Positions 2,597 to 32,640 of a DNA stretch of 36,171 nt are shown here, one piece after another. The notes under the pieces are model-generated. The model did no database searches and was not told the DNA's origin. It saw only the letters and a program-made list of their open reading frames with translations. The first letter of the stretch is position 1, and each line of letters starts with the position of its first letter. The DNA is from an uncultured Eubacteriales bacterium (GTDB taxonomy: Bacteria; Bacillota; Clostridia; Christensenellales; Aristaeellaceae), in NCBI GenBank assembly GCA_902798105.1, contig CADBVG010000042.1, positions 1-36,171 on the forward strand. The letters run 5' to 3'. The translations under genes and the position numbers were made by a program.

Positions 2597-3604
2597 CTAT
2601 GCCTCCTTGCTTCGGTTGTCGATGGCGTTCAGCTTTTCCCCGATCTCGCGTATCCGGCCTACATCCATGCCCATGTATCTCAGGGTGTCCCCCAGCCGGA
2701 TGACCGTCGCCCGACCGCTGGGCGCGTCGCTGTTCCAGCCGGATACCGCAGTGTCGAGCAGCGCCTTGGCCGCCGGATTGCCCATCAGATGGGCCAGCGT
2801 GCAATCCAGGTTCAGCGTCTTTTCCCGGTTGCCATTCACCTTCGCGCCAAAGCGCGGCGCTGCCAGGCCCTTGGGCGTGACGCCGCCCAGTACGTCCTTG
2901 AGCCAGGAGATGCTGTCCTCCACCCACCTGGGATAGCGTTCGCAGAAGGGGTTGCCTTCGATGCTGGCATCGCCGGTGGACAGCCCATGGGGCCCGTTGG
3001 AATAGATGTGGCTTTCAAAGGCCACCTCATTTCGATACAGCGCATCGACCAGGTGGATGGTATTCACCGCGGGCACCAGGTTGTCCGTGCGGGTGGCGAA
3101 CACGAAGCAGGGGCAGGTATTCCCGTCCACGTGCGCCACCACGTCCGGCGCGGTCCGCTGGTATTCGCGGACGCAGTCGCCGTCGATGACCGGATAGCCC
3201 AGTATGGCGGCGTTTGGCCGGTGCTTTGACATCGTCGCCGCGCATGCGGCCAGGTGTCCTCCGGCAGAAAAGCCCACCACCGCGATCCGGTCCTCCGCCA
3301 CATGCCACTGGTCCGCGCTTTGGCGGATCAGCGCCATGGCCTGCTCGTAGTCGTCCAGCGGATTGGGCCAGATGGACTGCGCATCCAGGGAATAGCGCAG
3401 TATAAACGCCTGGTAGCCCGCCTTCAGATAGGCGAAGGCGACGGGCTCCGCCTCCCGGTCGGAGCAGAAGTGATAGCCGCCGCCGGGAATGACCAGCACG
3501 CCGGGACGGCACTCGATTTGGCCGAACTCCCCGCCCACGGGCTGGATATACGCCGTCAGGCTGACGTTTCTCTCCGGGTTCAGAACGATGCGTTCGATTG
3601 TCAT
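2597..3604 (-). CDS. Alpha/beta-hydrolase, acetyl-xylan-esterase-like, with extra C-terminal module
   Basis: A 335-residue cytoplasmic alpha/beta-hydrolase of the carbohydrate-esterase/BD-FAE-like type. An oxyanion-hole region VIPGGGYHF lies near residue 38. The nucleophile Ser is in GFSAGG (about S113), the acid is probably Asp in TRTDNLVP (about D174), and the His is in NGPHGLS (about H206). The hydrolase fold ends near residue 240. The rest (about 262-331) is a helical tail that resembles the C-termini of the GH78 and GH2 enzymes in this window. The start is ATG at 3604 with GGAG upstream; the open frame extends further but without family similarity. It ends in TAG, two bases before the next gene. 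Removal of acetyl or acyl groups from imported oligosaccharides is the likely role. Confidence 0.8.
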   Translation of the reverse strand: MTIERIVLNPERNVSLTAYIQPVGGEFGQIECRPGVLVIPGGGYHFCSDREAEPVAFAYLKAGYQAFILRYSLDAQSIWPNPLDDYEQAMALIRQSADQWHVAEDRIAVVGFSAGGHLAACAATMSKHRPNAAILGYPVIDGDCVREYQRTAPDVVAHVDGNTCPCFVFATRTDNLVPAVNTIHLVDALYRNEVAFESHIYSNGPHGLSTGDASIEGNPFCERYPRWVEDSISWLKDVLGGVTPKGLAAPRFGAKVNGNREKTLNLDCTLAHLMGNPAAKALLDTAVSGWNSDAPSGRATVIRLGDTLRYMGMDVGRIREIGEKLNAIDNRSKEA

Positions 3605-3617
3605 GCGTGTTTCTCCT

Positions 3618-5366
3618 TTACAGCCGGGTATCCCAGCGCCCGCAGAACACGGTGTCGTCCGCCGTGCCGCGGAAGGCGCTCCTGCCCGTGATTTTCTCGA
3701 TGGCTGCGCGCACATTTTCCCGGTTCGGCCCATAGGCGTTCACGAAGGTGTGTATGTTGGCGCAGTCCACCAGGTGGTTGGTATAGTTCAGGCTGACGCC
3801 CACGGTGGGCACTTCCTCGGTGTACCAGGGCATCTCCATGGAATGGCCGCTGCTCCAGGACAGGCGCTCCACATTGCGCTGGGCATAGCCCTTCACGTAG
3901 ATGAACACGAACACCACGTCGTATTGCTTTTTGAAGTCCTCGCGTCGTCCCATCTGCATCATCCTGACAAAGTTCATCGGATGGGGGCCGTTTTCGACCT
4001 CCAGGTCGTAGAAGCTGGGGCACTGTGTGACGGCAAAGCCCGCCCGCTCCAGCTCCTCAGCAATCAACCCGCGCATACCGTCGCCCTGCCAGGCCTTGCT
4101 GTTGGGCGTGCTCTGCACGTAGATCAGCAGGGCGTTCTTCCGCTGCGCCGGGTCGATGGGCAGCAGGTTCCGGGTATCCTTCACCAGCGTCACACCCGCG
4201 TCTGCGGCCTGGGCGGTGTACTGCCTGTGCGCCTCGCAGCCGATCACGTCCAGCCCGGCTTCGTCAGGATAGCGCACCGCGTCGTCATACAGCCGCAAGC
4301 GCGCCTTCAGGCCCAGCACGCGCAGCAGCGCGTCCCGCAGCCTTTCCCCGGTTACGATTCCGCGCTCATAGCCCGCCTTCAGGTAGCCCAGGTCCTCCTC
4401 AAAATCGTTGGTGAACAGGAACATGTCGCAGCCCGCGGCGATGCACCGGGGCACGGCCTCGCTGCGCGCCATCACGCCGGACATGCCGATCATGTGGGAA
4501 GCATCCGAGATAATCAGGCCGTTGAAGCCCAGCTCGCCGCGCAGCAGGTCATTCAGCAGCTCCGGGGCCAGGGAGGCCGGCATGATCTCCTCGTTTCGGA
4601 TGCCGGGACGCAGCCTGCGGCTCATGGCGGGCAGGGAGATCTGGCCCGTCATGACGGTCTCCAGGCCCTCGTCGATCATCGTCCGATACACCCTGCCGTA
4701 GCTTTCCAGCCATTCCTCCGCACCCGCCTCGTTGTGGGCCGGGGAGATGTGGGGGTCCAGCTCGTCCCAGCCGTCGCCGGGAAAGTGCTTGCAGGTGCAG
4801 GCCATGTGTGGCGCGGCGTCCTTGATGCCCCGGATGTACGCGCGCACGCATTCGATGACGCGGTCCGGATCGCTGCCGAAGGAGCGGGTGTTGACGATGG
4901 TGTTGCGCCAGTTTTTATACACGTCCGCCACCGGGTTGAACATCCAGTTCACGCCGATGGCCGCCGCTTCCCTTCCGGCCACATAGCCCATGCGGTAGGC
5001 CGTCTGGGTGCCCTCGCTGGCCCCGGCCTGGGCTGCCGTGGCCACGAAGGTGCCCTCCTGGGGCAGCACGCCGTTGCCGCCGTCGTCGCAGTTGCCCGCG
5101 ATCAGCACGGGAATGCGGCTGTATTGCTGGAAATAGCGGTTCTGCCGCCACACACTGCATTTGTCTCCGCCCTGCCAACGCATGCCGCCCGGCCGCGCGG
5201 TTTCCATCAGATGCTTGATTTGCCCCTCGTCGACGCCGGGAACTGCCTTGAGCAGCACGAACAGCTGGCTCAGCTTTTCCTCCAGCGTCATGGAGGCCAG
5301 GGTGTCCTCCACCCATTGGATCTGGCTGTCCGTCAGGTAAAAGGGCCTGGCTTTCAGATCGACCAT
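3618..5366 (-). CDS. GH3 family glycosidase (copy 1)
   Basis: A 582-residue GH3 enzyme. It has the (beta/alpha)8 domain and a second alpha/beta sandwich domain, but not the fibronectin domain of longer GH3 enzymes. The nucleophile Asp is in IISDASHM (about D288). A KHFPGDG motif at 193-199, followed by DELDPH, resembles the NagZ-type KHFPGHG signature with Asp in place of the second His. The start is ATG at 5366, nine bases after AAGGAG. No signal peptide is seen. It is paralogous to the GH3 at 6037-7737, with the same N-terminal DLKA-PF and MT-EKL-QLF pattern. Both lie in one operon, separated by pgmB. Specificity (beta-glucoside, beta-xyloside or N-acetylhexosaminide) is uncertain. Confidence 0.88.
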   Translation of the reverse strand: MVDLKARPFYLTDSQIQWVEDTLASMTLEEKLSQLFVLLKAVPGVDEGQIKHLMETARPGGMRWQGGDKCSVWRQNRYFQQYSRIPVLIAGNCDDGGNGVLPQEGTFVATAAQAGASEGTQTAYRMGYVAGREAAAIGVNWMFNPVADVYKNWRNTIVNTRSFGSDPDRVIECVRAYIRGIKDAAPHMACTCKHFPGDGWDELDPHISPAHNEAGAEEWLESYGRVYRTMIDEGLETVMTGQISLPAMSRRLRPGIRNEEIMPASLAPELLNDLLRGELGFNGLIISDASHMIGMSGVMARSEAVPRCIAAGCDMFLFTNDFEEDLGYLKAGYERGIVTGERLRDALLRVLGLKARLRLYDDAVRYPDEAGLDVIGCEAHRQYTAQAADAGVTLVKDTRNLLPIDPAQRKNALLIYVQSTPNSKAWQGDGMRGLIAEELERAGFAVTQCPSFYDLEVENGPHPMNFVRMMQMGRREDFKKQYDVVFVFIYVKGYAQRNVERLSWSSGHSMEMPWYTEEVPTVGVSLNYTNHLVDCANIHTFVNAYGPNRENVRAAIEKITGRSAFRGTADDTVFCGRWDTRL

Positions 5367-5379
5367 CGCAAATCGCTCC

Positions 5380-6027
5380 TTATTCTTTCACAATTTCCAT
5401 AAGCTCCCTGATGCTCTTCATGTTCCAGTCGCCGGCCCCGTGCGCCGCGGCGTCGCCCAGGCAGGCCACCTTCATGCCGCCCGCGTGCCCCGCCTCGGCG
5501 CCCGACACGGCGTCCTCCACCACCAGGCAGCGCTCCGGGGGAATGCCCAGCATTTGGGCGGCCTTTACGAACACCTCGGGATCGGGCTTGGAACGGGTGA
5601 TGTTGTTGCCGTCGCTGACCGCGTCAAAATACCCTGCCAGGCCAATCTGGCCCAGAATAAAGGGGGTGTTTTTTGAAGAGGAGCCGATGGCCAGCTTCAA
5701 ACCCATGGCCCGCAGGCCGTCCAGCGTTTCCCTGACCTCGTCGCTCAGGTCCTCCGGGCTCATCTCATGCAGCGATTCCCGATAGAGCTCGTTTTTCTGT
5801 GTGGCGAGACTCTCCTTGTCCGCCTGGCTCAGGGCGGGGCCGTCGTATCGCTCCAGTACGATCTCCAGGCTCTCCATGCGGCTGACGCCCCGCAGCCGGT
5901 TGTTGATGGTTCGGTCAAAATATATGCCCATGCCGTCCGCCATGGTCTTCCAGGCGCGATAGTGGTATTCGTCGGTGAAGCAGATCACGCCGTCCAGGTC
6001 AAAAATGACCGCTTGAAATTTCATCAT
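5380..6027 (-). CDS. pgmB: Beta-phosphoglucomutase-family HAD
   Basis: A 215-residue HAD subfamily protein close to beta-phosphoglucomutase, which interconverts beta-glucose 1-phosphate and glucose 6-phosphate. Motif I is FDLDGVI, with the nucleophile and acid/base Asp. GVSRMESLEIVL in the cap is typical of PgmB, as are GSSSKNTPFIL (motif II) and RSKPDPEVF with VVEDAVSGAEA (motifs III and IV). The start is the first of two ATGs (6027), close to GGAGGCGGC; the second ATG is also possible. It lies between two GH3 genes, which suggests that a disaccharide phosphorolysis product or sugar 1-phosphate arises in this pathway, although no phosphorylase gene is in the window. Confidence 0.85.
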   Translation of the reverse strand: MMKFQAVIFDLDGVICFTDEYHYRAWKTMADGMGIYFDRTINNRLRGVSRMESLEIVLERYDGPALSQADKESLATQKNELYRESLHEMSPEDLSDEVRETLDGLRAMGLKLAIGSSSKNTPFILGQIGLAGYFDAVSDGNNITRSKPDPEVFVKAAQMLGIPPERCLVVEDAVSGAEAGHAGGMKVACLGDAAAHGAGDWNMKSIRELMEIVKE

Positions 6028-6036
6028 GCCGCCTCC

Positions 6037-7737
6037 TCAGTAGCGCAGGTAGTCCTTCCCACAGAAGGGATCGACGGGGCTTACGCCCTTGAATTCACTC
6101 TTGCCCACCAGCTTTTCCACCACGGTGTCGATCATCAGGTCGTGGTTGGAATAGGCATTGATATAGGTCTTGACCATGGGTACGTCCAGCAGGTGATAGG
6201 GGTTTTGCAGCGAGATGAACAGCGTGGGCACCACCTCCACAAACCAGGGAATGTTGTTCCCCGCGCCGTAGGGCGCGTGCCAGTTCAGGCGGGCGGTGGT
6301 CTTGTTGGAGGCGTTCTCCACGTTGCCGATGTAGATCACCAGGTCATACTTGCCGCGGAATTCCTCCACCGTCTCCATGTGCATGGGCTTGGAGAAGTCA
6401 AAGACCTCCTCCTGATAGGGGATCATCTCGAAGCCTTCTCTTTCCATGTCCTCAATGAAGCGCCGGGCCACGCGCTGCTCGCTGGGGCACTTGCCCATGA
6501 TCTCAAACAACACCCGATGATGCTTTACGGGGTCGATGGGCAGCAGGTTCTGCGTGTCCTTCACCAGCGTTACGGCCCTGTCCGCGCATTCCTTCGCCCA
6601 GGCCCGATGCTGCTCGCAGGCGATCACGCAGAGGTTCTCCCTCTTCGGCGCCAAATTGCCGTTTTGCTGCTTTTCGTGCAGCTTCAGCGCGGCCTTGGCA
6701 GCCAGGATGCGGGTGACGGCCTCGTCTAACCGCTGTTCGGAGAGGATGCCGTCGGCATAGCCCTGCTTCATGTAGCCCAGGTCCTCCCCGTAATCCTTGT
6801 TGAAAAGCAGCATGTCACAGCCCGCTTCAATGCAATATGGCACGGATCTGCGCCGGTCCATAGCGCACAGGAAGCCCACCATGGGCGAGGCGTCGGTGAT
6901 GATCATGCCGTTGAAGCCCAGCTGCTGACGCAGCAGGTTCTTCAAAAGCTCGGGCGACAGGGTGGCAGGCATCAGCCTGTCAGGGTGATTGGGGTTGAAC
7001 TTTTTCTGATAGGCGGGCATGGCGATGTGGCCCACCATCACGGTCAGCGCGCCGTTTTCGATCAGCGTCTTATAGATGTCCCCGTAGCTCGCGTCCCATG
7101 CCTCGCAGGACAGGGCGTTGACACTGGTGAGGATGTGCTGGTCGGTTTCATCCACGCCGTCGCCCGGGAAGTGCTTGATGGAAACGGCGCTGCCGCATTC
7201 CATCGCGCCCTTCATGTAGGCGAGGCCGCAGGCCTTCACCATGTCCACGTCACTGCCGTAGGTGCGCACGTTGGTGATGGGGTTGTGATAGTTCAGGTCG
7301 ATGTCCACCACCGGAGCGAAGGCGTAATTACAGCCCACCGCCTGCCCCTCGGCACAGGCGATTTTTCCCAGCCGGTAGGCCTGCTCTGGGTCGCCCGTGG
7401 CGGCGCACTGCATCTGCTTGCCGAAGGCGGTGCCCTCCTCCACGATGCCGTCGCCGCCGGCCTCCAGGTTCGCCGCCAGAAACAGAGGAATCTTCGTGTT
7501 GTTTTGCAGATAGGAATAGGCGGAGAACAGCTCTCCGGTCTTGCCTGTGCGGAACATGACGCCGCCCGGATGGCGGTTCAGCAATTCATATTGCAGATAA
7601 CCCTCGTTGGACGAATAGCCGATGGGGAAAAACAACTGTTCCAGCTTTTCGTCCGTGGTCATTTGCGCTTTCGTCTCCTCGACCCAGCGGACGGCTTCGT
7701 CGTCCAGGAAAAACGGATTGGCTTTCAGATCGATCAT
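6037..7737 (-). CDS. GH3 family glycosidase (copy 2)
   Basis: A 566-residue GH3 enzyme, paralogue of the one at 3618-5366. The nucleophile Asp is in IITDASPM (about D282). IKHFPGDGVDETDQH (about 188-201) is the equivalent of KHFPGDGWDELDPH in copy 1. The start is ATG at 7737, eight bases after AAGGAGG. There is no export signal. The sequences have diverged well beyond a recent duplication, so the two enzymes probably differ in linkage or sugar preference. The gene follows GH78 by 13 bases and precedes pgmB by 9 in what appears to be one transcript. Confidence 0.88.
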   Translation of the reverse strand: MIDLKANPFFLDDEAVRWVEETKAQMTTDEKLEQLFFPIGYSSNEGYLQYELLNRHPGGVMFRTGKTGELFSAYSYLQNNTKIPLFLAANLEAGGDGIVEEGTAFGKQMQCAATGDPEQAYRLGKIACAEGQAVGCNYAFAPVVDIDLNYHNPITNVRTYGSDVDMVKACGLAYMKGAMECGSAVSIKHFPGDGVDETDQHILTSVNALSCEAWDASYGDIYKTLIENGALTVMVGHIAMPAYQKKFNPNHPDRLMPATLSPELLKNLLRQQLGFNGMIITDASPMVGFLCAMDRRRSVPYCIEAGCDMLLFNKDYGEDLGYMKQGYADGILSEQRLDEAVTRILAAKAALKLHEKQQNGNLAPKRENLCVIACEQHRAWAKECADRAVTLVKDTQNLLPIDPVKHHRVLFEIMGKCPSEQRVARRFIEDMEREGFEMIPYQEEVFDFSKPMHMETVEEFRGKYDLVIYIGNVENASNKTTARLNWHAPYGAGNNIPWFVEVVPTLFISLQNPYHLLDVPMVKTYINAYSNHDLMIDTVVEKLVGKSEFKGVSPVDPFCGKDYLRY

Positions 7738-7750
7738 GGAAAGGTCCTCC

Positions 7751-10498
7751 TTAGTTTGCTTTCAATTCAAGCAGACGCCTTGCGCCCTCCGCCACCATTT
7801 GCGGGTTAAACCCCCGGAAGAACAGGGTTTTCAACTCCTCCAGGCTCATGGTCATGAATTCCTCGTCGCTGGAGGCGATCATCTCCCAGGCGCCGGGAAG
7901 GTCCGTTTTGAGTATCTCCAGCGCCTCCGGGTCGTCCTTCATCTCGCCCAGGCGGCTGTTCATGGTGTATTTCAGGCGATAATCCACCTCTGGCCGGTAG
8001 GTTTCCTCGTAGACGCCCGCCGGCAGCTCGACCACCCGGCCGCAGCCCGGCAGCACGGCCTCCGCCGTGCAGCCGAAGGGCACCTGGAAGCGCACCGCCA
8101 GCGTGCCATCGTCGTTGACGCGCCAACGGGACGCATATTCGCCGCTGACGGAATCATAGGCGCAGGACAGCTCCTTCAAGCGCCAGGTGGGCTGGGGCGC
8201 GAAGCGCACCCTCGTAAAGCCCGGCTCCAGCGGACGGATGCCCGCCAGGTCCCGGAACACGTATTCCATCACCGAGCCATAGGAATAATGGTTCAGCGAG
8301 TTCATGCCCGTGCCGCTGATGCTGCCGTCATCCAACACGGAATTCCAGCGCTCCCAAATGGTCGTGGCCCCCAGGTTCACGCAGTGCAGCCAGCCCGGGA
8401 AGCCCTCCTGGAACAGGAAGTGGGCCGCCAGGTCCTCCATGTCGTTTTCCGCCAATACCCGGCACATCATGGTCGCGCCCACGAAGCCGCCCTTGATTTT
8501 GAAGCAGTCCTTTTTGAATCGCTTCTTGAGGCCCTCCAGCAGGCGGCCCTTGTCCACGTACACGCCGAAGTTCAGGCACAGCAGGTAAGCCGTTTGGGTG
8601 TCCACGCACAGCCGCCCGTTGGGGCTGAAATACTCCCGCAGGATCGCAGTGCGGATCTCCTCCGCCAGCCTGCTGTATCTCTCGGCGTCCTCTTCCTTCT
8701 CCAGGATGCGAGCGGCCCGCTCCACCTTGCGGGCGGAGGCGTAATAGTACATGCTGGCCACGAAGAAGTCGTCGGTGCCGCCCTTCATGCTCTGGGGCGT
8801 CACGCCGTCCTGGGCCAGCCAGTCACCGAAGTGGAAGCCGAAGTTCCACAGCCTTTGGCCGCCGTTTTGCGCGTCCTGCCGAACAATCCATTCCAGCCAG
8901 TCCCGCATCAGGGGATACTGGCCGCGCAGTTCTGCGCTGTCGCCATAGTAATCATAGAGCGTCATGGGCAGGAAGGTAGCGATGTCGCCCCACACGCTGC
9001 TGCCGCTGGGTATGCCGCCAAAATTGGGCAGGTAGTTGGCCACCGCGCCGTCGTGCTTCAGCTGGTCGACGCGCAGGTCGTCCAGAAACTTGCGATAGAA
9101 GGCCCTCGTGTCCATCTGGAAGCAGGCCGTAGGAGAAAACACCTGGGCGTCGCCCGTCCAGCCCAGTCGCTCGTCGCGCTGGGGGCAGTCGGTGGGCATA
9201 TCCAGGAAATTGCTGCGCTGGCCCCAGAAGGCGTTTTTTGCCAGGCGATTCAGCTTTTCGTGGGAGCAATGGAAGCGAACGGATGTATCCAGGTCGGAAT
9301 AGACGACCCGGCCTGTGAAATCCCCGGGCCTGACCTCCTCCGGCCAGCCCGTCACCCGCACATAGCGGAAGCCGAAATAGGTAAAGTGGGCCCGTACCGT
9401 CTCCCGCTTCCCGTCAGACACATAGATCATCTGTGCCCTCGCGGTGCGATAATTGTCGTTGTAGAAATTCCCGTTCTGCAGGATCTCGCCGTGATCCAGC
9501 GTGATCCGCGTCCCGGCGGGAAAATCGGCGATGTACTCCAGATAGCCGGTGAAGTTCTGCCCCATGTCAAGCACGATCTCCCCCGCCGGCGTGCGGATGA
9601 CCTCGCGAACCGGCAGGCTGTCCTTTACCACGACAGGCAGGCTGTAGCGGTCCACCAGCGTCTTTTCCGGCATCAGGCAAACCGGTTTTCTTTCGTTTTC
9701 CTTCCCCTTCCACAGCAGGCGGTTCAGGCACTCGCCGTCATAGAGATCCGTAGCCTCGAAATCGCTGCCCCGGTACTGCCAGGCCTCGTCCGTGCCGATC
9801 ACCCGCTCGGTGCCGTCGGCCAGGGTCAAACGCAGCTCGGCGATCGCCTGGAAGCGACTGCCGTAGACCTCATTTCGGCCCTCGTAGCCCAGGCGGCCCT
9901 TGTACCAGCCGTTCCCGGTGAGGATTTCCAGCTCGTTTTCGTCGGCTTTCAGCAGCGCGGTCACATCATAGGCCTGGGCCTGCACGTGCTCGTCATAGTC
10001 GTTGCAGAATGGAGCCAGCAGATCGTCCCCGGCCTTTTCGCCATTGATGTACGCCTCGTACAAGCCCAGTCCGGATACATACAGTCTGGCGGAAACGACG
10101 TCCTTCGGCAGGGAAAAGCCGCGGAAGAACACGGGATGAAAGCAATCTTCCACCGCCTGGCCGATCCACTTCGCCTGCCATGGCTCCTCCAGCTTGCCGG
10201 TTTCGAACCAGCTCTCGCCCACGGCGGCGTCCCCGGCGTCGCCCTTCACCTCCACCCGCACATAATACCGGGTGCGGGGGCGCAGCGCCATGTGCACCTC
10301 CTCCCCGATGCTGCGCAGCTTCATGCCTTCCTTTTCAAACAGAATTTGAGAAAAGCCGGGGTCGGCGGCCACCCAAAGGCGCGAAAACACCGGCGCTTTG
10401 GAATCCGTCTCCACCGTCTTCCAGGAGACGGACAGGTGCGGCAGCGAAAAGCCCAGCGGCTCACGTATGCCATTAATGCGGATATCTGCAATCTTCAT
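7751..10498 (-). CDS. GH78 alpha-L-rhamnosidase-type enzyme with extra C-terminal module
   Basis: A 915-residue GH78 family protein, an inverting enzyme that removes terminal alpha-L-rhamnose. Beta-sandwich domains fill the N-terminal 400 residues, including DMGQNFTGYLEY near 311-322. The (alpha/alpha)6 catalytic domain follows, with DCPQRDERLGWTGD at 437-450 (general acid about E443) and TTIWERWNS (base about E716). A C-terminal beta domain ends near 835. The last 75 residues form an additional helical segment that resembles the tails of the esterase (2597-3604) and GH2 (12708-14927) proteins. The start is ATG at 10498 after AAAGGAAATT. No signal peptide. It is the first gene of the minus-strand glycosidase operon; a miniature element lies just upstream, between it and the ABC gene. 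Confidence 0.9.
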   Translation of the reverse strand: MKIADIRINGIREPLGFSLPHLSVSWKTVETDSKAPVFSRLWVAADPGFSQILFEKEGMKLRSIGEEVHMALRPRTRYYVRVEVKGDAGDAAVGESWFETGKLEEPWQAKWIGQAVEDCFHPVFFRGFSLPKDVVSARLYVSGLGLYEAYINGEKAGDDLLAPFCNDYDEHVQAQAYDVTALLKADENELEILTGNGWYKGRLGYEGRNEVYGSRFQAIAELRLTLADGTERVIGTDEAWQYRGSDFEATDLYDGECLNRLLWKGKENERKPVCLMPEKTLVDRYSLPVVVKDSLPVREVIRTPAGEIVLDMGQNFTGYLEYIADFPAGTRITLDHGEILQNGNFYNDNYRTARAQMIYVSDGKRETVRAHFTYFGFRYVRVTGWPEEVRPGDFTGRVVYSDLDTSVRFHCSHEKLNRLAKNAFWGQRSNFLDMPTDCPQRDERLGWTGDAQVFSPTACFQMDTRAFYRKFLDDLRVDQLKHDGAVANYLPNFGGIPSGSSVWGDIATFLPMTLYDYYGDSAELRGQYPLMRDWLEWIVRQDAQNGGQRLWNFGFHFGDWLAQDGVTPQSMKGGTDDFFVASMYYYASARKVERAARILEKEEDAERYSRLAEEIRTAILREYFSPNGRLCVDTQTAYLLCLNFGVYVDKGRLLEGLKKRFKKDCFKIKGGFVGATMMCRVLAENDMEDLAAHFLFQEGFPGWLHCVNLGATTIWERWNSVLDDGSISGTGMNSLNHYSYGSVMEYVFRDLAGIRPLEPGFTRVRFAPQPTWRLKELSCAYDSVSGEYASRWRVNDDGTLAVRFQVPFGCTAEAVLPGCGRVVELPAGVYEETYRPEVDYRLKYTMNSRLGEMKDDPEALEILKTDLPGAWEMIASSDEEFMTMSLEELKTLFFRGFNPQMVAEGARRLLELKAN

Positions 10499-10536
10499 CT
10501 CGAATTTCCTTTCAAAAATGGCGGGCGCGGCGTATA

Positions 10537-10695
10537 GGGAGTGTTTCTAAAATTCAGGATGTGCAGTTTCGAGTGGATTTGACTGCATTTCAAGGCGATT
10601 TTCCGCAGGCTCAGTGGGGCTAAGTCAAGGAAAATCAACGCAGAAATGCAGGCAAAGATGCCGAAAATGCACGTTCGGGGTTTTGAAACACGCCC
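10537..10695. repeat. Family A miniature inverted-repeat element (MITE-like), 159 bp
   Basis: The ends are GGGAGTGTTTCTAAAA on the left and TTTTGAAACACGCCC on the right, an imperfect terminal inverted repeat. The left end is preceded by TA; the right end is followed by TC, so one target base may have mutated. The internal sequence (CAGTTTCGAGTGGATTTG, GAAATGCAGGCAAAGA, CCGAAAATGC) matches the copy at 19565-19735. It contains no coding frame. It sits in the roughly 240-base gap between the GH78 gene and the ABC chimera and may carry or displace the operon promoter. Confidence 0.8.
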
Positions 10696-10739
10696 TCAGC
10701 CTTCGCTCGCCATAAGGTGGTTGGTTGAAATTCGGTCGG

Positions 10740-12386
10740 TCACGCCTTGATCGGATTGTGTGTGGCCGTCATCTTTCCGAACAGCTTCTTGATGTTGCCA
10801 CTCTGTCCGGCCACCAGGTTTACCAGGAACACGAACAGGTCCATCATTGCCGTGGAGATGGCGCCGCCCAACTCGGCCTTGAACACCATGGTCAGGCCGG
10901 TCTTCATCATGCAGATGGCCAGGGAGCCCATGATGATGCCGATGGTATCGCCGCAGAACGCGCCGATGTACAAGCCTACGAACACGGGCAGTATGTTGGA
11001 GAACAGCTCGCCTACCGTGCTCAGGGAGGAGAAGCTGGCGTCGCGTTTGCCCAGGGAACCCCAGATGATGGTGGCAAAGCCGAAGATCAGGCCGCTGTAC
11101 ACATAGCTGAGGATGACGTTCTTGTTCTCGTTCACGCCAATGTTCACCGCCGCCTGTTGGTTCTTGGCCAACAGCAGGCTCTGCTTGCCACCGTGGCATT
11201 TGATGCGATAGTTGGCGATCTCCACATCGCTCAGCTTCTTCTCCGCCCGGGGGCTGATGAAGGTGTTGTGCTCCAGGGCCGGGATGGAGAGCAGCACGAT
11301 GTTGTCCTGGATGGGACCGTTCAGGATCAGGGCCTCGCTGTCGCGGTTCTTGGAAATATAGCCGATGCCGTTGTTGATGGCCTGCAACGGCGTTTTAATC
11401 TCGTGGCCGTTGCGCACCACCCTGCCGCCGCTGAGCTTCTCCAGGCCGTAGGCGATGCGCCCGATGTCATGCATGCCGCAGCCTGAAAGGCCGCCCATGC
11501 CGATGATCTCGCCCTTGTGCAGCTTCAGGTTGAAGTGCTGTATCCGTCCCAGGGATACGTCCTGCAATTCCAGCGCCACCTCGTCGGAATGGCTGGTATC
11601 ATAATCCTCGCGGTAATACTTGTCGCCGATCTCCCTGCCCACCATCATGTAGCGGATGGTCTTCACCGAATCCGGCGCGTCCATCTCCTCGCGAGTCAGG
11701 TGGCCGATGATGTCGCCGTCCCGAAGGACGGTCAGGTCGGTGCACTGCTCCAGGATCTCGTCCATGTCGTGGGAGACGAACACGACGGCCTTGCCCTGCT
11801 CCGCCATCCTGTGGATCAGCTTGTACAGGATCTCGCGGCCCTCCAGCGACAGGGCCGTGGTGGTCTCGTCCACTACCAGAATCTCGGTCTTGTCGGTGAC
11901 GCAGCGCACCAGCTCCACCAGCTTGCGGTCCTCGAAGGTGTATTGGTCAATGGGATCGCCAGCCTTGATGTGGCTGATGCCGAAGCTCTCCAGCACTTTC
12001 TGGGCTTCCTTCTTCATCTTCCGCATGTTGATGACGCCGAATTTGGAGAATTCCGCCTCGTGGCCGGAGAAGATGTTCTGCGCCACGGTGACGCCGGGAA
12101 TGGTGTTGGCTTCCTGAAGGATCATGGAAATGCCCGCATCCTGCGCTTCCACCATGTTGCCGGGATTCCAGGGCTTCCCCTTGTAGGTCATATCGCCTCG
12201 GGTAGCGGGCTGCATGCCGGAAGCAATGGACATGATCGTGGATTTGCCGGACCCGTTCTCCCCCACCAGGCCGCGAATCTCACCCCTGCGCAGGGTATAA
12301 TCCACATCCTTGAGGGCGATGGTGGGGCCGAATTCCTTTCGCATGTGTCTTGCTTCAAAAATGATTTCCTTCTGCATTTGCACCAT
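10740..12386 (-). pseudogene. Chimera: sugar ABC ATPase fused in frame to the C-terminal half of a permease
   Basis: Residues 1 to about 401 are an RbsA/MglA-type sugar-import ATPase. Walker A is GENGSGKST (42-50), the NBD1 Walker B region is ILVVDETTTALS (169-180), and the second NBD starts at about 275 with the degenerate loop GGLSGCGM. At IKCHGGKQ (about 401) the sequence leaves the ATPase, just before the expected second signature and Walker B. It continues as the back half of an RbsC-type permease: LLLAKNQQAAVNIGVNENKN, then about four membrane spans. The missing part is the end of the ATPase and the front of the permease, as expected from an in-frame deletion of about 1 kb between adjacent genes. 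A working importer is unlikely. Starts at 12386 or 12377 are possible; neither has a strong ribosome binding site. No binding-protein gene remains nearby. Confidence 0.8.
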
Positions 12387-12449
12387 CTCACTTTTTAAAG
12401 AATCGGAAGCGCTCGCGTCAGTCGGTCATGGAGGTCTCTCCTTTTACAA
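12387..12449. other. Probable deletion junction between ABC chimera and AraC fragment
   Basis: On the minus strand, AAAGGAG (12438-12444) is followed eight bases later by an ATG (12429) that reads only MTD before a TGA. A few codons reading ERFRFFKK and a stop then lie directly ahead of the ABC gene start. This looks like the beginning and end of a lost gene brought together. On the plus strand, AraC homology begins abruptly at about 12450. Together these suggest that one or more genes were deleted here. Confidence 0.35.
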
Positions 12450-12692
12450 TGGTACCTCTCCAACCGCTTTCACAGGGAGGTGGGCAGGACGTTGACCGAT
12501 TATATCAACCAGATCCGCGTCCAGCGCGCGGTCCGACTGCTGGAAAGGACGCCCCTTCCCATGCAGGAAATTGCGGAGCAGTGCGGCTTTTCTGACGCCA
12601 ATTACTTCACCCGCACCTTCAAGAAGATCAACGGCATCTCCCCCAACGAATACCGGAAATCCCTGGGCAAACTGGCGCGTCCCCATTCATAA
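12450..12692 (+). pseudogene. AraC-family regulator, C-terminal DNA-binding fragment
   Basis: The frame encodes most of an AraC double helix-turn-helix domain. WYLSNRFHREVGRTLTDYIN is the recognition helix of the first HTH and the linker. EIAEQCGFSDANYFTRTFKK is the second HTH, followed by the typical GISPNEYRKS end. Similarity starts abruptly at about 12450; helix 1 of the first HTH and the whole effector domain are missing. The only in-frame start before the surviving DNA-binding part is GTG at 12480, which would give about 70 residues. It lies 15 bases upstream of the GH2 gene on the same strand, so it was probably the regulator of that gene or of the divergent sugar transporter. The remnant is unlikely to respond to a ligand. 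Confidence 0.75.
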
Positions 12693-12707
12693 TCAGGAGG
12701 AAAACCC

Positions 12708-14927
12708 ATGCAAAAGATCTCACTGAACCCAAGCTGGAAATTCAGGAAGCTGCCCGGCATGACGCTGGATACCCTCCCCGATATGCTGCCCGACGGCCCG
12801 TGGGAGGCGGTTTCCCTGCCCCACACCTGGTACAGCGACGACGAACCCTATCAGGGCCTGGCTGTCTATGAGAGAACGATCGAGCGGGATGCACACTGGC
12901 AGAGGGTTTTTCTTTCCTTCGACGGCGCAGACCAACGTTGCCGCGTGTTTGTCAACGGCTACTTCGCCGGGGAGCATCGCGGGGGCTATGCCCGCTTCCG
13001 ACTGCCCATCCCCGTCGCCGCGATGGGCGATGAAGTCTGGCACATACGGGTTTTCCTGGAAAACAGCGTCAACGAGGATATCGCCCCGTCCTTCGGGGAT
13101 TTCACCGTGTTCGGAGGGCTGTACCGGAACGTCGATCTGCTTGTCTGCCATAAAAGCCACTTCGACCGCTGCTATTACGGCACGGACGGGATGATCCTTC
13201 GAACCTGGGTTGGCGACGACGGACAGGGCGTTATAGATGTGGCGCCCCACGCCATCTGTGAAGGCGACAGCGGCAGCATCGCCTATGCGCTGACCGATGA
13301 AAGCGGAGCGGTCATCCGCGCCTTGGAAGCCGGAACCAACGAAGTGATAGCCATTGACGTGGATACCCCCATGCTTTGGGATGGCGTGGGAAAGGCTCGC
13401 CTCTACACGCTTGCAGCCGATCTGGTTGTAGATGGAGAAGTCGTCGATCACACTGACCTGCGCACGGGGTTCCGCCGCATCGAAATGACCGGAGAGGCCG
13501 GTCTTCGCCTGAACGGACAGCCCTGCCAGATTCACGGCGTATCCAAACACCAGGACCGCGCCGACACGTTCAGCGCCACGACGCCGTCGGATATCCGGGA
13601 GGATTTTGCCATCATCCGGGAAATGGGGGCCAACGGCGTGCGGCTGTCCCATTACCAGCACCCCCAGGCAGCCTACGACTGCTGCGATGAGCTGGGGCTG
13701 CTCTGCTGGGCTGAAATTCCCATGCTGAAGATGACGGAGAGCCCCGCCCTTATGGAGAATGCCTCGCAGCAGCTCACCAAGCTGATTTTGCAGAACATTC
13801 ATCATCCCTCCATTTTCTGCTGGGGCATTCAAAACGAAATCGCCATGTTCCGGGACGCGCCCTTCATGCACGAAAACTGCAAGCGGCTGCACGAACTGGT
13901 TAAGGCCCTGGACGGGCATCGCCTCTCCACGGCAGCCAACCTGTATCCTCTGAAGGCGTCCAGCAAGTTGAATGAGATCACGGATATGATCGGCTACAAC
14001 CTCTATTTCGGCTGGTATTACGGGGAGATGGCGGACTTCGGCCCCTGGCTTGACCGCTTTCACGCCCTGCGCAGCCAGCTTCCCCTGGGCATCAGCGAAT
14101 ACGGCGTGGACGCCAACCTGGCGCTGCACAGCGAAGCGCCAGCGGTCAAGGACTACTCCGAGGAATACCAGGCGCTGTGGCACGAAACGGTCTATCCCCA
14201 GATCGCGGCCCGCCCCTGGCTGTGGGGCAGCTTTGTCTGGAACATGTTTGACTTTTCCAGCACCCGCAGAAATGAAGGCGGCCAGCGCTTCATCAACGCC
14301 AAGGGCCTTGTAACCCATGACCGCAGGACCCGCAAGGACGCCTTTTACTACTACAAGGCCCGCTGGTCGGAGGAGCCCTTTGTCCACCTGTGCGCCAGGC
14401 GGTTTGAAAACAGGGGCCAGGAAGAAATCGACGTGAAATGCTATACCAACCAGCCCTCGGTGAAGCTGCTGGTGAACGACCGCCCCTTCGGGGAGACCCG
14501 GTCTGAAAACGGCGCGGCTGTGTTTCGCCAGGTTCCACTGGACATGGGCGATAACGCCGTCCAGGCCGTTGCCGGCGATTGCGTCGACAGTGTCCTGTGG
14601 CGTCGTGTCCCCGATCCGGACACCAGCTATCGTCTGCCGAATGAGAAAGCAGGCGGCGCCGTGCTCAACTGGTTCCTGACGGAGGACGACATGCGCAAGG
14701 AGGGTTTCTTCTCCATACAGAATACCGCCCAGGAGCTGCTGGACCACGCAGACGCGAGAGCCGTGCTGGAAAAGTATGTTCCCGACCTGGTACACGTGAT
14801 GGTAGAACAGAGCGTCATCCCCCTGGGCCTGTCACTGAAGAGCATCCTCAGCCGGGACGCGGACGAAAAGCTGGATGTTAAGGCACTAAATGAAGAACTG
14901 AACCGGATTTCCGACACGGACGAATAA
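12708..14927 (+). CDS. GH2 family beta-galactosidase-like enzyme with extra C-terminal module
   Basis: A 739-residue GH2 retaining glycosidase. The jelly-roll sugar-binding domain covers about 1-150 (VSLPHTWYSDD, HRGGYARF) and the immunoglobulin-like domain about 155-260. The TIM barrel starts with the GH2 landmark LNGQPCQIHGVSKHQD. The acid/base is Glu in WGIQNE (about E377), and the nucleophile is Glu in GISEYG (about E464). A further beta domain (about 560-635) is followed by a helical tail (about 667-735) that resembles the tails of the GH78 and esterase proteins. The start is ATG at 12708, seven bases after AGGAGG. There is no signal peptide. It is followed by the nucleoside-hydrolase-like gene after 19 bases. 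Exact sugar specificity (galactose, glucuronate, mannose) cannot be assigned from sequence alone. Confidence 0.88.
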   Translation: MQKISLNPSWKFRKLPGMTLDTLPDMLPDGPWEAVSLPHTWYSDDEPYQGLAVYERTIERDAHWQRVFLSFDGADQRCRVFVNGYFAGEHRGGYARFRLPIPVAAMGDEVWHIRVFLENSVNEDIAPSFGDFTVFGGLYRNVDLLVCHKSHFDRCYYGTDGMILRTWVGDDGQGVIDVAPHAICEGDSGSIAYALTDESGAVIRALEAGTNEVIAIDVDTPMLWDGVGKARLYTLAADLVVDGEVVDHTDLRTGFRRIEMTGEAGLRLNGQPCQIHGVSKHQDRADTFSATTPSDIREDFAIIREMGANGVRLSHYQHPQAAYDCCDELGLLCWAEIPMLKMTESPALMENASQQLTKLILQNIHHPSIFCWGIQNEIAMFRDAPFMHENCKRLHELVKALDGHRLSTAANLYPLKASSKLNEITDMIGYNLYFGWYYGEMADFGPWLDRFHALRSQLPLGISEYGVDANLALHSEAPAVKDYSEEYQALWHETVYPQIAARPWLWGSFVWNMFDFSSTRRNEGGQRFINAKGLVTHDRRTRKDAFYYYKARWSEEPFVHLCARRFENRGQEEIDVKCYTNQPSVKLLVNDRPFGETRSENGAAVFRQVPLDMGDNAVQAVAGDCVDSVLWRRVPDPDTSYRLPNEKAGGAVLNWFLTEDDMRKEGFFSIQNTAQELLDHADARAVLEKYVPDLVHVMVEQSVIPLGLSLKSILSRDADEKLDVKALNEELNRISDTDE

Positions 14928-14946: not shown

Positions 14947-15873
14947 ATGAAGCGCAGCGAGATTCTGAACCGCATCGGCATCACCCCGCCCCCCGACGCA
15001 CGCATTCGCCTCATCGTGGATACGGACGCGAAAAACGAAGCGGACGACCAATACGCCATCATGCATCACCTGCTGACGCCCATGTTTGACGTTCGCGGCA
15101 TCATCGCCACGCATTTCGAGCAAAAGGCGGAGTATGGCGGACAATCCATGGAGGCGAGCTATCTGGAAATCGAAAAGGTGCTCCAGCTTGCGCAAATCGA
15201 TGACGTTCCATACTTCCACGGCTGCGCCCTCCCCTTGAAATCAATCCATGACGCGCCGGACAGTGAAGCCGTTCGGTTTATCATCCAGGAGGCACGCAAG
15301 CCAGGAAAGCTGTACATCGCCCAACAAGCGGCCCTGACCAACACAGCCGCGGCGATCAACGCCGCCCCGGACATCGCTGAAAACCTGGTGGTACTGTGGA
15401 ACGGCGGCGGGCCCTACCCCGGGGGACGCCCGGAATTCAACGTCATGCAGGACCCGGACGCCGTGCGCGCGGTGCTGGCCAGCCCTGCGGAGGTCTGGCA
15501 GACTGACCAGAGCGTCTACTGCACCCTGGAGGTAACGCTGGGCGAGCTGAAGCACAGGGTATTCCCCTGCGGCAAAATCGGCCACTATCTGTACGAACAG
15601 CTTGAAGCTGAAAACCACGCGGAATACAACCCGGATTTCCTGCTGCGCACCGGCGAAAACTGGACGCTGGGCGACAACACCACCGCCGCTGTCCTGCTGA
15701 TGAATCGATGGAGGGGCAACTGGCACATGGCGCACGCGCCCATCATCAAGGATGATCTGACCTACCAGGCCAATCCTGACGGCAAACTGATCCGCATCTA
15801 TGACAGCATCGACGTGCGCATGACGCTGGAGGATCTGTTCGCCAAGCTCGCCCTGGCCTACGGAAAAGATTAA
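14947..15873 (+). CDS. Nucleoside-hydrolase-family protein
   Basis: A 308-residue protein of the inosine-uridine nucleoside N-ribohydrolase fold. The N-terminal calcium/ribose motif reads VDTDAKNEADDQYA, where the classic family has DTDPGIDDA-A, so spacing and residues are altered. TNTAAAINAAPDI and the NGGGPYPGG plus FNVMQDPDAV segments match the conserved core (NxxxDPxA). Near the C-terminus GDNTTAA replaces the usual His/Asp site. These changes suggest a substrate other than ordinary nucleosides, perhaps another N- or O-glycoside, given its coupling to GH2. ATG at 14947 follows TAGGAGG. The TAA stop lies on the left edge of a family B repeat, so the original C-terminus may have been altered. 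Confidence 0.8.
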   Translation: MKRSEILNRIGITPPPDARIRLIVDTDAKNEADDQYAIMHHLLTPMFDVRGIIATHFEQKAEYGGQSMEASYLEIEKVLQLAQIDDVPYFHGCALPLKSIHDAPDSEAVRFIIQEARKPGKLYIAQQAALTNTAAAINAAPDIAENLVVLWNGGGPYPGGRPEFNVMQDPDAVRAVLASPAEVWQTDQSVYCTLEVTLGELKHRVFPCGKIGHYLYEQLEAENHAEYNPDFLLRTGENWTLGDNTTAAVLLMNRWRGNWHMAHAPIIKDDLTYQANPDGKLIRIYDSIDVRMTLEDLFAKLALAYGKD

Positions 15874-31364: not shown

Positions 31365-31455
31365 TTACACGTCCGCTATTGAGAAAAAGATGACTTCGTG
31401 GTACAATATAGTTGTTGCATGGAGCTCTTTTCTCAATGCGGGAAAGGAGTTCAAA

Positions 31456-32640
31456 ATGGGAAAAAACCTCAAGGGGAAAGAAATTGGCAAGGGGATCTGC
31501 CAAAGAAAGGATGGTTTGTTCGTCGCAAGGCTCGTTGAGAAATCAGGCAAGCGCCATGCCAAGATTTTCAAGACGATTCCTGAAGCGCGCAACTGGCTGG
31601 AGGATACCAGACAAGCTGACAAGCATGTCACCCTTCCGCTTGTATCTGAAATCACCGTCGATCAATGGTTCGATTACTGGATTGAGAACATCGTCGGAGA
31701 TCGGGCGCCTAATACGTGCAGGAATTATCGTGAACGTTATGTTCACAATATCCAACCGTATATCGGACGTATGTTGCTGACCGAAGTCAAGCCCATGCAC
31801 TGCAAGATGGTTCTGAACAATATGGAAAAGACTTATGCGGGCGGCACAATCCGACAAGCGTACATCGCGATGGGGACCATGTTCAAATCGGCTCTGATGA
31901 ACGATATGATTTCAAAGCACCCGATGAACGGTGTTCTCTACACAAAACCCACTCGATCGGTGGACGATATTCACTTTCTGACAATCGACGAGCAGGAGAA
32001 GTTCCTCGAAATCGCCAAGCGTTCTCATAACTATCGACAGTACGTTTTGATTCTGGAAACAGGATTGCGAACGGGCGAACTGATCGGTCTGACATGGGAC
32101 GCGATCGACTTCGAGAAGCGCACGCCGACCATCAACAAGACGTTGGAATATCGCCACAAGTATAAGGAATGGCGTGCCGGGCCTCCGAAGACCGTCAAGA
32201 GTTATCGAACGATTCCATTGACCACCCGGGCCGTGGAGATTTTGAAAGAGGTGTACGCGGAACGCGACACCCAGAAAAAGTCTGACACACTCACGCTGGA
32301 ATTGGAGTACATGGATCGCCGTACGGGGCAGGTAATGATGCTTCACATGAGCGATTTGGTGTTCATCAACTGGCGGACGGGAGAGCCTGCGAAAAACAGC
32401 TCGTATGATACCCACCTTTACAAGCTGTGTGATGAAGCGGGCATCAAGCGCTTTTGTATGCACGCGCTGCGGCACACCTATGCGACACGGGCGATTGAGC
32501 GTGGCGTACCGCCCAAGGTGCTGCAAAGACTGCTGGGGCACGCGAGCATGAAAACAACCATGGACAGGTACGTTCATGTGACGGACGAGTCCATGGAAAG
32601 TGCCATTCGGCTGTTCGAGAACGGAGAAAATGGTACATAA
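31456..32640 (+). CDS. Tyrosine site-specific integrase (Tn916-like)
   Basis: A 394-residue tyrosine recombinase. The N-terminal AP2-like arm-binding domain (ICQRKDGLFVARL) is followed by a SAM-like core-binding domain (TVDQWFDYWIENIV, NYRERYVHNIQPYIGRMLL). The catalytic domain holds Arg in ETGLRTGEL, Lys in the beta-hairpin near PPKTVKSYRTIPL, HALRHTYATR, LGHAS, and Tyr in MDRYVHV. All active-site residues appear intact. ATG at 31456 follows AAAGGAG. Only the excisionase stub remains beside it, so the element is probably stranded. The integration site seems to be just upstream of ychF. Confidence 0.92.
   Translation: MGKNLKGKEIGKGICQRKDGLFVARLVEKSGKRHAKIFKTIPEARNWLEDTRQADKHVTLPLVSEITVDQWFDYWIENIVGDRAPNTCRNYRERYVHNIQPYIGRMLLTEVKPMHCKMVLNNMEKTYAGGTIRQAYIAMGTMFKSALMNDMISKHPMNGVLYTKPTRSVDDIHFLTIDEQEKFLEIAKRSHNYRQYVLILETGLRTGELIGLTWDAIDFEKRTPTINKTLEYRHKYKEWRAGPPKTVKSYRTIPLTTRAVEILKEVYAERDTQKKSDTLTLELEYMDRRTGQVMMLHMSDLVFINWRTGEPAKNSSYDTHLYKLCDEAGIKRFCMHALRHTYATRAIERGVPPKVLQRLLGHASMKTTMDRYVHVTDESMESAIRLFENGENGT

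Follow-up and report, generated by a model that had tools for sequence, protein, structure and literature searches.

A helical module shared by three unrelated enzymes of an Aristaeellaceae gene cluster belongs to a portable, widespread accessory domain

Why do three carbohydrate-active enzymes with unrelated catalytic folds end in what looks like the same short run of helices? This question is raised by a 36,171-nucleotide stretch of DNA (hereafter, the window) from an uncultured Eubacteriales bacterium of the family Aristaeellaceae (assembly GCA_902798105.1, contig CADBVG010000042.1), in which an alpha/beta-hydrolase, a glycoside hydrolase family 78 (GH78) alpha-L-rhamnosidase, and a GH2 enzyme each carry a tail of this kind. 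An earlier note on this DNA had aligned the three tails by eye and proposed that they dock the enzymes to a common scaffold. The tails are homologous copies of one portable helical domain. We describe them with hidden Markov models (HMMs) called A3 (13 tails), A4 (30 tails), and A5 (a later profile/HMM). The carriers and their modules are as follows:

2597..3604, minus strand: alpha/beta-hydrolase with module, BD-FAE / sugar esterase type (335 aa; Pfam BD-FAE, 8.2e-20)
2600..2848, minus strand: C-terminal helical module of the hydrolase (motif start at residue 263/335; HMM E 2.3e-25 with A3, 6.7e-19 with A4)
7751..10498, minus strand: GH78 alpha-L-rhamnosidase with module (915 aa; Pfam Bac_rhamnosid6H, 3.7e-103)
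7754..8014, minus strand: C-terminal helical module of GH78 (motif start at residue 844/915; HMM E 2.6e-27 with A3, 2.7e-19 with A4)
12708..14927, plus strand: GH2 enzyme with module, nearest to FMN-binding beta-glucuronidases by PDB sequence similarity (739 aa)
14664..14924, plus strand: C-terminal helical module of GH2 (motif start at residue 668/739; HMM E 1.2e-29 with A3, 1.8e-18 with A4)

The motif starts bear out the positions that the earlier note had given for the tails, as well as its view that they lie beyond the known folds. Pfam domains stop upstream of them (Bac_rhamnosid_C ends at 819 in GH78 and DUF4982, 572-622, ends at 622 in GH2), and the three tails are covered by no Pfam or NCBIfam model. 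The nearest solved relatives of the hydrolase are 4q3k and 3hxk. In the whole genome (3.24 Mb, 89.7% complete), these three tails are the only module matches at E<=0.01. All three are rows of both A3 and A4, and independent support comes from comparing family profiles and from tails selected by the catalytic body.

Single-sequence BLASTP of GH78 against GH2 did not detect the tails. Profiles of the closest orthologues (5 GH2, 4 GH78, and 4 hydrolase tails) gave E values of 1e-4 for GH2-hydrolase, 0.03 for GH2-GH78, and 0.28 for GH78-hydrolase; two of the three pairs were thus not significant, which left room for a chance resemblance of amphipathic helices. The tails of four other GH78 enzymes bridged the families, however, matching GH78 at 2e-11 and GH2 at 4e-7 (the latter over 29 columns). 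With larger profiles (25 GH3, 18 GH2, 16 GH78, and 6 hydrolase tails), every one of the six pairings of families matched at E values of 2e-12 to 5e-6, compared with a best value of 0.003 among 360 column shuffles (60 per pair). Since the sets for these six pairs had been chosen with the joint HMM, a less circular test takes loci chosen by their catalytic body and treats as the tail whatever comes after it. For GH78, a tail of at least 90 aa was present in 17/30 loci and matched the module HMM in 16/17; for GH2, a tail of at least 110 aa was present in 26/30 loci and matched in 25/26 (two of these tails, L190 and L196, are identical). Hydrolase tails were present in 8/26 loci, 4 of the initial 30 having been removed by a body-end filter, and all eight matched. 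Four tails per set were already rows of the A4 alignment and several others are close orthologues of rows; outside the A4 rows, matches were found in 12/13 GH78, 21/22 GH2, and 4/4 hydrolase tails. Since the remaining loci (13/30 GH78, 4/30 GH2, and 18/26 hydrolases) end no more than 52 residues past the matched body, the module is optional on all three enzymes. Finally, 10,957 open reading frames (ORFs) yielded 167 module matches at E<=1e-3, with none for the same ORFs reversed; most of this set comes from loci collected for the module, so that 167 is not a rate. Together with the matching structures described below, these comparisons practically exclude chance resemblance, and the proposal of one module on three unrelated enzymes is upheld.

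An AF2 model of the GH2 tail (pLDDT 87.7, pTM 0.79) has five helices, and a second model was made from eight hydrolase tails only (pLDDT 70.9, pTM 0.60). The two separately predicted folds have their helices in the same order, and each of them also resembles the C-terminal stretch of GH3 beta-glucosidases of known structure. As modeled, the domain comprises about 70-100 residues, predicted to form an extended start, a short helix, a ten-residue helix, a variable linker, and two helices. The GH3 enzymes in question are 7MS2 from C. thermocellum and 9LQL/8J9F (PSTG1), whose catalytic domain differs from those of the window carriers. Profile matches fall at 668-754 of the 7ms2 sequence and 696-780 of the 8j9f/9lql sequence, and fold matches of the tail models at 675-750 and 675-753 (entry numbering); in these entries, the module is part of the chain with deposited coordinates. 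Our literature searches returned no account of a function for this C-terminal stretch. The sequence link to another small domain, DUF1858 (PF08984; 2K53, 2K5E), is weak: a search with the GH2-tail model did not return 2K53 or 2K5E, PF08984 was among the Pfam matches at E<=1 for 0/30 module tails, and a cysteine pair seen by eye in 28/29 DUF1858 rows occurs in 0/30 tails of A4.

What is known of the module's function comes from GH2 enzymes. The six PDB chains most similar to the whole GH2 protein of the window are 7kgz, 6mvg, 8get, 8ges, 6mvf, and 6mvh (464-484 bits; next best, 351 bits), a placement by similarity ranking rather than by a tree. Besides the GH3 entries, the strong PDB matches of A5 are the C-termini of these same six entries, and in 7kgz the match lies at 651-732 with A4 (5e-15) and 650-733 with A5 (7e-17). 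6MVG, 6MVH, and 7KGZ are FMN-binding gut beta-glucuronidases (PMC8748916, PMC9377255, both consulted as excerpts, like the other papers cited here), with which 6MVF, 8GES, and 8GET group by similarity. The C-terminal domain (CTD) of these enzymes is described as about 150 residues long, mobile, and unresolved in crystals (PMC8748916). The module occupies the same position in the window enzyme, C-terminal of the barrel and the following Ig-like domain, with its motif at 668 after DUF4982. Judged by profile and position, the GH2 tail is the CTD of FMN-binding beta-glucuronidases, or the main part of it. Rh3 GUS (7KGZ) needs this CTD for triclosan-glucuronide (PMC8748916), and a stop after residue 644 in Rh2GUS (6MVH) lowers specific activity on mycophenolate-glucuronide eightfold; in models, the CTD lies outside the active site, where it could serve as a gate (PMC9377255). 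In 8get, the profile puts the module at 655-754 of 757 residues, and since the alignments of 8get and 6mvh are the same once positions are shifted by 23, the Rh2GUS truncation probably removes the module plus about ten residues before it.

The module extends well beyond these enzymes. The 66 distinct carriers of the first searches fell into body clusters, identified through Pfam matches of representatives, of 25 GH3, 18 GH2, 16 GH78, and 4 alpha/beta-hydrolases, plus 3 small or cut ORFs. Thus, the claim that GH3, GH39, and pgmB lack the module is right for the window, where the module HMM matched neither GH3a, GH3b, pgmB, nor the GH39 pieces, but does not hold in general, as GH3 was the commonest host found. 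Across a set of 120 genomes of the window's family, A3 gave further matches, the stronger ones at the extreme end of long ORFs. Across larger samples, the module was detected in 90/150 genomes of the family (E<=0.001), 41/291 of the class (E<=0.01), and 16/398 of a phylum sample (E<=1e-4), the last including N-terminal copies on two GH13 enzymes and an SDR. Five out of five examined ORFs of ~1,000 aa, from five genomes (L209, L344-L347), are GH2-module-alpha/beta-hydrolase fusions in which the module lies between the catalytic domains. A single copy was detectable in 62/90 carrier genomes of the family and several in 28/90 (E<=0.001), many of these genomes being incomplete drafts. Our literature searches returned no description of the module across enzyme families, and no Pfam model covers it. 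The module is therefore a widespread, unnamed accessory domain of carbohydrate-active enzymes, undescribed as such but of a known general kind, whose GH2 version is already known as the CTD.

Copies without any catalytic partner also exist. Module-only ORFs of 70-75 aa occur in two genomes of the class Clostridia (L114:1462-1689 and L122:1498-1710); the neighbors of the L122 copy resemble, by eye, a polysaccharide deacetylase and a ferredoxin reductase rather than a glycosidase. A plasmid search with the SDR-type copy led to soil bacteria, the sphingomonads, where one protein matched 54 places in 20 plasmid records. Eleven annotated small proteins of 95-109 aa, taken from 11 of the 54 places and in several cases from close strains, score 34-49 bits with A5 and 23-40 bits with the 13-tail HMM built from the window's family. 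All eleven have a signal-peptide-like start by eye, and they are apparently secreted. A glycosidase gene, recognized by annotation or Pfam, lies near the free copy in 10/11 stretches: GH3 accompanied by either a rhamnosidase or GH106, GH106 adjacent to a PQQ dehydrogenase, GH97, GH2 with GH39, or genes named beta-glucosidase, beta-galactosidase, and beta-xylosidase. The L309 stretch has no glycosidase gene near its free copy and contains a 3beta-HSD/epimerase-like gene. On a Sphingobium yanoikuyae plasmid, a cytochrome P450 (L311:7315-8937) itself ends in the module (48.5 bits), close to a free copy and to the genes for GH2 and GH39; no other ORF of at least 200 aa in the 11 stretches carries it. 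In L301-L303, L307, L308, L310, and L313, the free module gene adjoins a TetR-family gene, often divergent from a glycosidase or PQQ dehydrogenase gene. Several of the strains are named TomMM or TomTYG, and the word TomMM occurs in PMC10653915, according to which tomato-root Sphingobium degrade steroidal saponins. The module-bearing plasmids may therefore serve saponin breakdown.

The three window carriers belong to one conserved gene cluster, whose other members in the window are listed here:

3618..5366, minus strand: GH3a, in the hydrolase/GH78 operon, without module (Pfam Glyco_hydro_3, 1.8e-52)
5380..6027, minus strand: pgmB-like HAD gene, same operon, without module (Pfam Hydrolase, 8.5e-26; the name pgmB is from the earlier note)
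6037..7737, minus strand: GH3b, same operon, without module (Pfam Glyco_hydro_3, 2.1e-57)
14947..15873, plus strand: nucleoside-hydrolase-like gene downstream of GH2, without module (Pfam IU_nuc_hydro, 8.9e-21)

In 34 related loci, mostly from gut and rumen Clostridia drafts plus Agathobacter ruminis, Faecalicatena orotica, and a Bacillus sp., the set of GH78, GH3b, pgmB, GH3a, hydrolase, and the next gene (HAD-like by eye) recurs with variation; some of the loci also have GH2 and the nucleoside-hydrolase gene close by. The module is present on GH78 in 28/34 of these loci (of the six without it, one is cut by a contig end and five are distant), on GH2 in 13/14, and on the hydrolase in 10/11, each missing one being cut by a contig end; none of the ORFs assigned to other cluster genes carries it. 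The tails group by host enzyme, those of different enzymes within one locus being only ~16-23% identical. Three further observations concern the rest of the window. A GH39 gene (151-1767, minus) is split by an in-frame stop into same-frame ORFs at 1039-1767 (N-terminal part) and 151-1014 (C-terminal part). Between GH78 and GH2, an ORF at 10740-12386 (minus) has a sugar-type ABC ATPase domain followed, by eye, by permease membrane segments, of which Pfam recognizes ABC_tran only; a transporter gene that has been shortened or rearranged is one possibility. A phage-type integrase (31390-32640, plus) adjoins a ychF-like gene where a group of peptide-type ABC transporter genes ends.

What, then, might the module do? 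Since an effect on activity has been measured in GH2, since the hosts met most often come from families known to trim small glycosides, and since in GH2 the tail is almost as conserved as the body, we take as most likely, though at a little under an even chance, that the module is a mobile lid or contact element at the mouth of the catalytic domain. It would help to draw in and position glycosides, acylated or not, whose non-sugar part is bulky, and the carrier enzymes of a small-molecule glycoside pathway would thereby work well on such substrates. For GH2, this reading draws on the loss of activity upon truncation and on the modeled position of the CTD outside the active site (PMC9377255); that GH78, GH3, and the hydrolase use the module in this way, and that it touches the aglycone, is an inference. 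Its occurrence on P450 and SDR hosts points toward the aglycone, not the sugar, as the part to which it is linked. Several observations weigh against such a lid. Experiments on the module found in the literature concern GH2 only; for GH78, GH3, or the hydrolase, no deletion of the tail is known to us. In both GH78 (0.58 vs 0.71) and the hydrolase (0.42 vs 0.71), the tail evolves more quickly than the body. Free-standing copies and the N-terminal copies on GH13 and SDR misfit a simple C-terminal lid, and hosts of family GH13 give no hint of a bulky aglycone. Moreover, in a comparison of 11 loci, GH78 tails resemble hydrolase tails of their own locus more than those of other loci (permutation p 0.0005 pairwise and 0.0002 in a joint alignment, uncorrected for phylogeny), which fits a joint role better.

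Because free and N-terminal copies occur outside the position of a C-terminal lid, there is room for assembly, ligand binding, or docking. Homo-oligomerization of each host, with the activity loss on truncation being indirect, is unlikely. In its favor, the quaternary state of gut glucuronidases is tied to C-terminal domains, though other ones (a DUF and CBM57; PMC6351562), single-copy genomes fit homo-oligomers, and the module is kept between the domains of the five fusions. Yet a CTD that is mobile and unresolved in crystals would be an odd interface, and the mutant proteins were reported to show no structural change (PMC8748916). A shade less probable is a domain that is no lid but has a ligand of its own, either hydrophobic aglycones or some other small molecule, bound in cis or in trans; the free copies with signal-peptide-like starts near glycosidase genes, and the fusions to SDR and to a P450 clustered with GH2, GH39, and a free copy, argue for it, while the GH13 hosts argue against it. 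Docking, in which the tails would bind each other or a common scaffold to build a cytoplasmic complex of GH78, GH2, the esterase, and others, appears improbable. All three matches of the genome do lie within one cluster, the module is retained on the same three enzymes in related loci, the fusions join two carrier types in one chain, and the GH78-hydrolase similarity points the same way. No same-locus signal was found, however, for GH78-GH2 (p 0.69/0.97) or GH2-hydrolase (p 0.81/0.85), the operon also encodes GH3a, GH3b, and pgmB, which carry no module, tail sequences sort by host enzyme with low identity within a locus, 62/90 carrier genomes have one detectable copy, and the module also occurs on GH13, SDR, and P450 and as free proteins. 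As a general role, the scaffold proposed from the window is thus weakly supported. A broader reading, which we regard as less likely than not, is a portable aglycone-handling domain of small-molecule glycoside catabolism: fused to glycosidases and esterases, which release the aglycone, and to a P450 and an SDR that would then attack it, or secreted as a free helper near glycosidases, as in sphingomonads, it would capture or present bulky aglycones (drugs, saponins, flavonoids) in cis or in trans.

A domain that helps gut beta-glucuronidases to reactivate mycophenolate and triclosan is thus a general module with solved GH3 examples and natural free versions, and the GH3 coordinates and free proteins make its mechanism directly testable. 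Uncharacterized enzymes that bear it, and 90/150 genomes of the family do have the module, become candidate enzymes for glycosides of plants or drugs. Among known systems, the window cluster resembles the potato-glycoalkaloid-deglycosylating clusters of Arthrobacter and Glutamicibacter, where, in the excerpt of PMC10653915, GH2, GH3, and GH78 likewise stand together, in bacteria other than that of the window. The closest counterpart of the module is the CTD of the FMN-binding beta-glucuronidases, described in the excerpted reports as a feature of that enzyme class of about 150 residues, whereas the module defined here has 70-100 residues and many hosts.

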